Of a DNA stretch of 64,000 nt, positions 30,885-32,128 are shown in pieces. The DNA comes from Arcobacter vandammei (GTDB lineage Bacteria > Campylobacterota > Campylobacteria > Campylobacterales > Arcobacteraceae). How positions within the stretch are numbered: position 1 is the stretch's first letter; every line of letters begins with the position of its first letter. A program made the translations under genes and the position numbers. The notes beneath the pieces were generated by a model. It ran no database searches, had not been told where the DNA came from, and worked only from the letters and a program-made list of their open reading frames with translations. The DNA lies in the NCBI RefSeq assembly GCF_016106035.1, contig NZ_JADKPZ010000003.1, positions 1-64,000 of the forward strand, in the 5' to 3' direction.

Positions 30885-30935
30885 TTTTCAATCTATTGAA
30901 AAAAATGTGATATAATCTTTTCAATAGATTGAAAA
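30885..30935 (+). promoter_or_regulatory. Promoter with two mirror-image palindromic operators
   Basis: Box 1 (30885-30902, TTTTCAATCTATTGAAAA) and box 2 (30918-30935, TTTTCAATAGATTGAAAA) are exact reverse complements of each other. Each is itself a dyad of TTTTCAAT and ATTGAAAA around two central bases. A perfect TATAAT -10 lies between them at 30911-30916. Box centres are 33 bases apart, about three DNA turns. Box 1 covers the -35 region and box 2 the expected start point, so a bound dimer pair should block transcription. Confidence 0.75.
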
Positions 30936-30943
30936 GGAATATT

Positions 30944-32128
30944 ATGAATTTAGATAAACTATTTGAGTTATCAAATCTTTTTTTCTCACTTCCCACACCA
31001 AAACACAAAAGATATTTATTTGAAAAGATAGATAAAAACTCCAAACATATTGCAATTTTAGGTCAAAGAGGAGTAGGAAAAACTACTCTTTTAAGACAAA
31101 TTGCAAATGAATACAACTATTTACAAACTCAAATTTTATATATAAGTGCTGATAGTGTTGCAGATTCCCTTTTTGAACTTGCAAAAGAGTTTAGTCTTTT
31201 TGGTGGAAAATTATTAATAATTGATGAAATTCACAAAGCTAGTAATTTTGCACAAGAAATAAAAATGATTTATGATTTTTTAGATATAAAACTTATATTT
31301 TCTGGTTCATCTGCTTTAGAGATTGAAAATAGTAAAGTAGATTTAAGTAGAAGAGTGCTTTTCTATAGATTAAATTCTTTGTCTTTTAGAGAGTTTTTGG
31401 CTATAAAATTTGATTTTGATTTTAAGCCTTTAAGTCTTGAAGAGCTACTTAATAATCACCAAAATATAGCTATGGAGCTTAAAAAATCTTTTAATCCTTT
31501 GGAATATTTCAAACTTTATAAAGAGTTTGGTTCTTATCCATTTTTTACAGAAGGTGAAATGGCTTATAATTTAAGATTAAATGAGATTTTAAATATTATC
31601 CTTGATAGTGAAGTTGCAACTATTTACAATGTAGAAAGTGAAAAAATAAATACAATAAGAAAACTTTTGCACCTACTTTGTAGTAGTGTTCCTATGGAGT
31701 TAAATATCCAAAATTTAGCTAACAATGCACAAATTAGTAGAAATACTATGTATTCATACTTTTATTATCTTCAAAAAGCAGATTTAATAGAGATAATTGG
31801 TGGAGATTTTTCAAATAAAAAATTGTTAAATAAACCAGATAAAATATATCTTGAGAATATAAATCTATACAATATTCTATGTTCAAACAAAAATAGTGGA
31901 AATCAAAGAGAGAGTTTTTTTGTATCTCAAGTGAAAATTTATAACAATTTAAAATATGCAAAAATGGGTGATTTTGTAGTAAATGATAAATATATCTTTG
32001 AAATTGGTGGAAAAAACAAAGATTTTTCTCAAATCAAAGATTTAGAAAATAGCTTTTTGGCTCTTGATGATATTGAAATTGGGTTTAAAAATAAAATCCC
32101 ACTTTGGTTATTTGGGTTTTTGTATTGA
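30944..32128 (+). CDS. AAA-type ATPase with winged helix and DUF4143-like C-terminus
   Basis: A 395-residue protein. Walker A is GQRGVGKTT (40-48), Walker B LLIIDE (90-95), with a sensor-like FSGSSALEIE (119-128). A helix-turn-helix region spans about 250-285 (NIQNLANNAQISRNTMYSYF). The C-terminal part has a possible PD-(D/E)xK-like nuclease remnant (GDFVVNDKYIFEIGGKN, 342-358). Family members are common but functionally unassigned. The ATG at 30944 has AAGGA upstream; an in-frame extension to 30929 would begin inside the operator. It appears monocistronic and tightly controlled. Confidence 0.8.
   Translation: MNLDKLFELSNLFFSLPTPKHKRYLFEKIDKNSKHIAILGQRGVGKTTLLRQIANEYNYLQTQILYISADSVADSLFELAKEFSLFGGKLLIIDEIHKASNFAQEIKMIYDFLDIKLIFSGSSALEIENSKVDLSRRVLFYRLNSLSFREFLAIKFDFDFKPLSLEELLNNHQNIAMELKKSFNPLEYFKLYKEFGSYPFFTEGEMAYNLRLNEILNIILDSEVATIYNVESEKINTIRKLLHLLCSSVPMELNIQNLANNAQISRNTMYSYFYYLQKADLIEIIGGDFSNKKLLNKPDKIYLENINLYNILCSNKNSGNQRESFFVSQVKIYNNLKYAKMGDFVVNDKYIFEIGGKNKDFSQIKDLENSFLALDDIEIGFKNKIPLWLFGFLY

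Follow-up and report, generated by a model that had tools for sequence, protein, structure and literature searches.

Autorepressing ATPases, controllers fused to nucleases (PMC3850674) and separate repressors of defence islands (PMC12255303) are all known. RepA of repABC plasmids is an autorepressor that belongs to the ParA-type ATPases (PMC4492784), and fusions between controllers and restriction endonucleases have been described for the C proteins of restriction-modification systems (PMC3850674). As for single-gene defence candidates, PDC-S01 of PADLOC is a common one that combines an ATPase with a PD-(D/E)XK domain, and its validation is pending (PMC12988326). Here, we analysed 64,000 nucleotides of the Arcobacter vandammei genome (contig NZ_JADKPZ010000003.1, positions 1 to 64,000; hereafter the window), in which two palindromic boxes bracket the -10 element of a gene for a STAND-like ATPase. 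An earlier note on this DNA had proposed that the boxes are the operators of a dimeric repressor but left its identity open; our results single out the ATPase itself as the likely regulator. Comparison across the family makes it very probable that each such ATPase represses its own promoter through a private operator pair, the boxes being the operators of the gene behind them. The earlier note would then have understated the case, as the promoter appears to represent a family-wide, co-diversified self-operator system, a variant of autoregulation.

The distal box (TTTTCAATCTATTGAAAA) lies at 30885-30902 and the proximal box (TTTTCAATAGATTGAAAA) at 30918-30935, both putative operators to which no strand is assigned. 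The paired dyad described in the earlier note is confirmed: the two 18-mers are exact reverse complements of each other, each has internal dyad symmetry at 16 of its 18 positions, and their centres are 33 bp apart with TATAAT (30911-30916) between them. This hexamer is part of an extended -10 element on the + strand (TGATATAAT, 30908-30916), with a TATGnTATAAT-like spacer that is kept in orthologues, and it places the predicted start point at about 30923, inside the proximal box. The boxes serve a single gene, which encodes the 394-residue ATPase at 30944-32128 on the + strand, with an in-frame TTG also at 30929. The score of the dyad pair reached the floor of a shuffle test on this promoter (300 shuffles, p = 0.003). 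Within the 64-kb window, TTTTCAATNNATTGAAAA is found with zero mismatch at this promoter only, and the proposed genome search gave these two as the only exact sites in the whole 2.2-Mb genome, together with three other sites with one mismatch, all of them single. No similar dyads are scattered through the genome, and the boxes are well conserved among orthologues (see below); neither of the two outcomes that the earlier note had named as refuting was thus observed. With three mismatches allowed, 15 matches were seen in the window and 10.65 are expected by chance; loose matches of this kind are meaningless because their number is close to chance.

The arrangement that had been described for this one promoter, with paired boxes over the -35 region and the start point about three helical turns apart, is a rule of the family. 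Inspection of the promoters of 131 homologues revealed dyad pairs on either side of the -10 box, their sequence differing from clade to clade, and homologues from Campylobacterota, Bacteroidota, Desulfobacterota and other phyla have the same layout with other box sequences. We tested the layout with dinucleotide shuffles on 96 representatives at 70% identity from several phyla, allowing spacings of 20-60 bp. A significant dyad pair was found in 42 of the 96, as opposed to 7 of 74 control promoters, which probably include some family copies missed by the filter. The spacing is 32-34 bp in 38 of the 42 significant pairs, where about 3 are expected (p = 6e-39), and in 65 of the 96 best pairs overall. 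Beyond Campylobacterota, 21 of 44 representatives have a significant pair, again mostly at 32-33 bp. In the clade whose recognition helix carries the SRVK motif, the spacing is mostly 41-44 bp, about four turns. Of the paralogues in the window genome, one (L037, C2:89516-89601) has three boxes at successive 34-bp steps, not two.

The ATPase is predicted to carry a DNA-binding helix-turn-helix (HTH). In its structural model (mean predicted local distance difference test score, pLDDT, 90.4), a P-loop domain is followed by a winged helix, and the C-terminal part forms an alpha/beta domain. The winged-helix region (residues ~232-302, 31637-31850 on the + strand) comprises helices 232-247, 255-262 and 266-278 and strands 282-285 and 300-303, the recognition helix being residues 266-278 (codons ~31739-31777). 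Matches to the HTH_11, TrmB and HTH_45 profiles occur among family members, with Pfam HTH_11 found in 10 of 48. For 46 representatives, we compared the similarity of the boxes, symmetrised and called with a spacing prior, with protein identity in sliding 13-residue windows, correcting for identity elsewhere in the sequence. The five highest-ranking windows are all within residues 253-277, in the HTH (r = 0.236, maximum-statistic permutation p = 0.0002), and the AAA region shows no covariation with the boxes (p = 0.81).

The putative operators at the promoters are specific and follow the recognition helix, as also seen in pairs of helix motifs and half-sites. Helices with SRP go with TGTAA-N8-TTACA (12/14 versus 7/102, p = 6e-10; 6/6 versus 4/31 outside Campylobacterota) and those with NRN with TGCTT-N8-AAGCA (11/13 versus 7/103, p = 3e-9), p-values that are only guides because the pairs were chosen after the data had been seen and the members are related and not independent, a first point that tells against self-repression through private operators. 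Further pairs are DRT with TATGTA-N6-TACATA (6/6 versus 0/110), SRVK or SRAK with GTAAA-N12-TTTAC (5/5 versus 2/111), and [ST]K-T and DR[DE]T, each with its own half-site (7/11 versus 1/105 and 2/5 versus 0/111, respectively). The SRN-TLYSYLYYL of the window protein goes with TTCAAT-N2-ATTGAA (2/2 versus 0/114). SW-x-T showed no association with TAAA..TTTA, a motif too AT-rich to discriminate. Unlike paralogues of one genome mostly have distinct helices, which fits insulation between copies; in one genome (G058), there are nine copies, each with a distinct helix type. Copies with like helices in the same genome numbered 2 where 6.6 are expected at 70% helix identity (p = 0.03), other thresholds giving no significant difference; the copies per genome in this test are a lower bound, with at most four scored.

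Other results likewise tell against self-repression. The C-terminal region also correlates weakly with the boxes (p = 0.024), and an earlier, cruder covariation score that took in all dyadic windows was not significant, so that the strength of the covariation depends on how the boxes are called. About half of the representatives lack a pair that is significant in the shuffle test, in many cases because their distal box is degenerate, and no pair of this kind is present in L053, a distant homologue with 29% identity.

Self-repression could operate as follows. Dimers of the ATPase, or two dimers within a larger oligomer, would bind both 18-bp dyads, which are nearly on the same face of the DNA because they lie about three helical turns apart, and binding may be cooperative, as the earlier note had supposed. 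With the distal box occupied over the -35 region and the proximal box over the start point, the extended -10 promoter would be blocked and the protein held at a low set level by negative autoregulation. By analogy with RepA, ATP or ADP might control the binding (PMC4492784). As each copy brings both an operator pair and the matching recognition helix, a mobile copy would be self-contained when it enters a new host and would largely ignore the promoters of paralogues unlike itself. It is tempting to speculate further, although we regard this extension as rather doubtful, that the family forms specificity groups like the immunity groups of prophages. A resident copy would repress incoming copies with the same operator, so that only new specificities could establish, which would drive the diversification of helix and operator; loss of the ATPase or its capture by an invader would relieve repression and thereby couple an attack to the induction of a nuclease-like defence protein.

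Alternatively, the protein might bind the boxes as an activator or to mark the locus, for instance as a loading site for the ATPase or nuclease. The distal box is near -29, where it covers the -35 region, and an additional, third box lies farther upstream in at least one member, as would suit an activator or a mark; nevertheless, the best conserved box, the proximal one, covers the predicted start point, a repressing position, and a -10 element of the extended consensus should need no activator. We therefore regard activation or marking as unlikely, and retain repression of the ATPase gene by its own product as the preferred explanation.

The comparison of this promoter in related species, which the earlier note had suggested, bears on who the regulator is. 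All ten close orthologues, which are 72-75% identical, belong to other families and are each found in a different neighbourhood, have kept the boxes. The mean frequency of the major base falls from 0.94 in the proximal box to 0.83 in the distal one and 0.44 in the flanks: the proximal box hardly varies, the distal box is kept in a looser, degenerate form and the flanking DNA is unrelated. As this conservation persists despite unrelated neighbourhoods, the boxes move together with the gene. In the window genome and nine orthologue genomes, the pattern was found only at the ATPase promoter, except in G239, and two genomes of that comparison have no exact match to it. In G239, an extra pair of the same kind (L206, C18:2683-2733), 33 bp apart, is located just behind the orthologue, where neither a -10 box nor a clear gene accompanies it; it may be a decoy or what is left of a lost copy. 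The window ATPase gene itself is a single-gene insertion between an arsC-like gene and cysS; in four congeneric genomes these two are directly adjacent, separated by ~30-55 bp with no ATPase gene. No shared gene was noticed beside the ATPase in the open reading frame lists around the ten copies, read by eye without profile searches of the neighbours. Unrelated neighbourhoods and gene-less arsC-like/cysS junctions thus argue that gene and boxes moved together, which leaves the ATPase as the only shared candidate regulator.

A separate regulator encoded elsewhere in the host might nevertheless bind the boxes, the ATPase being merely its target. Small separate repressors can indeed control defence genes, as RptR does on the promoter repeats of a defence island (PMC12255303). 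However, such a regulator would have to explain why the same boxes accompany this gene in genera that belong to different families and have no neighbour in common, why the boxes are absent elsewhere in orthologue-bearing genomes, why they covary with the HTH of the ATPase and why they differ between paralogues of one genome, which together make it quite improbable. As each box is an inverted repeat, the dyads could in principle function at the RNA level, or form DNA cruciforms or terminators; we give this very little credence, since the predicted start point inside the proximal box leaves only part of that box in the transcript, the loops are just 2 nt, the spacing keeps close to a whole number of helical turns and the box sequence tracks the protein helix. 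Chance in AT-rich DNA is refuted by the conservation data, together with the unique exact pair in the genome and the fixed spacing, even though dyads with three mismatches are about as frequent as in shuffles. The preferred account remains that the ATPase acts on its own promoter.

Other copies of the gene are found in the window genome and beyond. The window genome has three further full copies and one decayed remnant, a C-terminal fragment with four stop codons (L039, C2:41576-41821) that is a sign of gain and loss. A lone site of the type of the C15 copy, with one mismatch (C15:18205), has no partner box and no gene starting from it. At a distance of a few kb from another paralogue (L198, contig 12 of the window genome, 60000-74000) are genes that resemble, by eye only, those for Cas1, Cas2 and a large Cas protein. 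Further copies are present on Arcobacter and Aliarcobacter plasmids, for example in Aliarcobacter cryaerophilus ATCC 43158. On contig 66 of G248 (L203), three different copies occur within 6.5 kb, and their promoter boxes differ from copy to copy. Three relatives of the ATPase (L287, L288 and L289) were also seen in IMG/VR viral contigs, two of them with boxes paired 32-33 bp apart (p = 0.005 and 0.05).

As for the protein outside its winged helix, Pfam AAA_14 is matched with 85.2 bits (gathering score 27; E 5e-24), and the Walker A and B residues G40, G43, G45, K46, T48, D94 and E95 are invariant among 48 aligned members. DUF4143 is just below its gathering score for the window protein (27.9 versus 28.1 bits) and is matched at E <= 1e-3 by 35 of the 48. 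The nearest solved folds to the model are of the STAND type (2qen, 2fna, CED-4, plant NLRs and Avs5), and nSTAND profiles score below cut-off for the window protein. By analogy with PDC-S01, the C-terminal region (31967-32125, + strand) is assigned as PD-(D/E)XK-like. D343, E353, K359 and Q363 are invariant in the 48-member alignment, and the canonical active site D...(D/E)-x-K is absent, with an invariant glycine, G355, at the lysine position. Residues 343-363 (31967-32035) thus present E-x-G-G-x-x-K in place of E-x-K, plus the invariant glutamine. It is possible that K359 substitutes for the canonical lysine, and the nuclease site is possibly rearranged or lost. The biological role is probably in defence or in the function of mobile elements.

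In a limited search of the open-access literature, we found no report of a STAND-like ATPase family with mobile members and a private operator pair matched to its own winged helix, and nothing on the regulation of the AAA_14/DUF4143 family. Self-repression through a private operator would be a first testable biochemical property for a large, patchily distributed ATPase family that is close to one of the commonest uncharacterised defence candidates. It also suggests how one genome can carry many mobile single-gene copies without mutual interference, and dozens of recognition helices with their operators would form a natural set for learning the winged-helix DNA code.

The closest known systems share some of these features and differ in others. 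Like the window ATPase as we propose it, RepA is an ATPase that acts on imperfect palindromes of its own promoter, with nucleotide-dependent binding and an operator specificity proper to each plasmid (PMC4492784). It is of another ATPase class and belongs to an operon for plasmid partition and replication, whereas the ATPase described here is encoded by a lone gene, ends in a nuclease-like tail and has no neighbours in common between genomes. The controller-endonuclease fusions also unite regulator and nuclease in one polypeptide that controls a mobile gene (PMC3850674). In contrast to the C proteins, the winged helix is here inside an ATPase, the operators form a pair at 33 bp, and no methyltransferase partner was noticed by eye, without a profile search, around the ten ATPase copies. 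PDC-S01 is the closest defence profile (PADLOC, E-values only: 3e-28 over residues 24-323, followed by 1e-24 and 2e-19 for two further models) and has the same overall domain plan as the window ATPase. The lysine of the canonical E-x-K is an invariant glycine in the window family, and the portion of its description available in PMC12988326 gives no promoter rule. SSO1545 (2fna) and PABY2304 (2qen) are the best structural matches, with Z ~15 over 257 residues, winged helix included, although these archaeal ATPases are only 15-18% identical to the window protein. Lambdoid phages have a dedicated prophage repressor, CI, with co-diversified repressor-operator pairs, several operators per control region and insulated immunity groups. 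The ATPase family would resemble them in all three respects, co-diversified pairs, several operators per control region and insulation between groups, and differs in that the regulated product would here be the regulator, the same ATPase.
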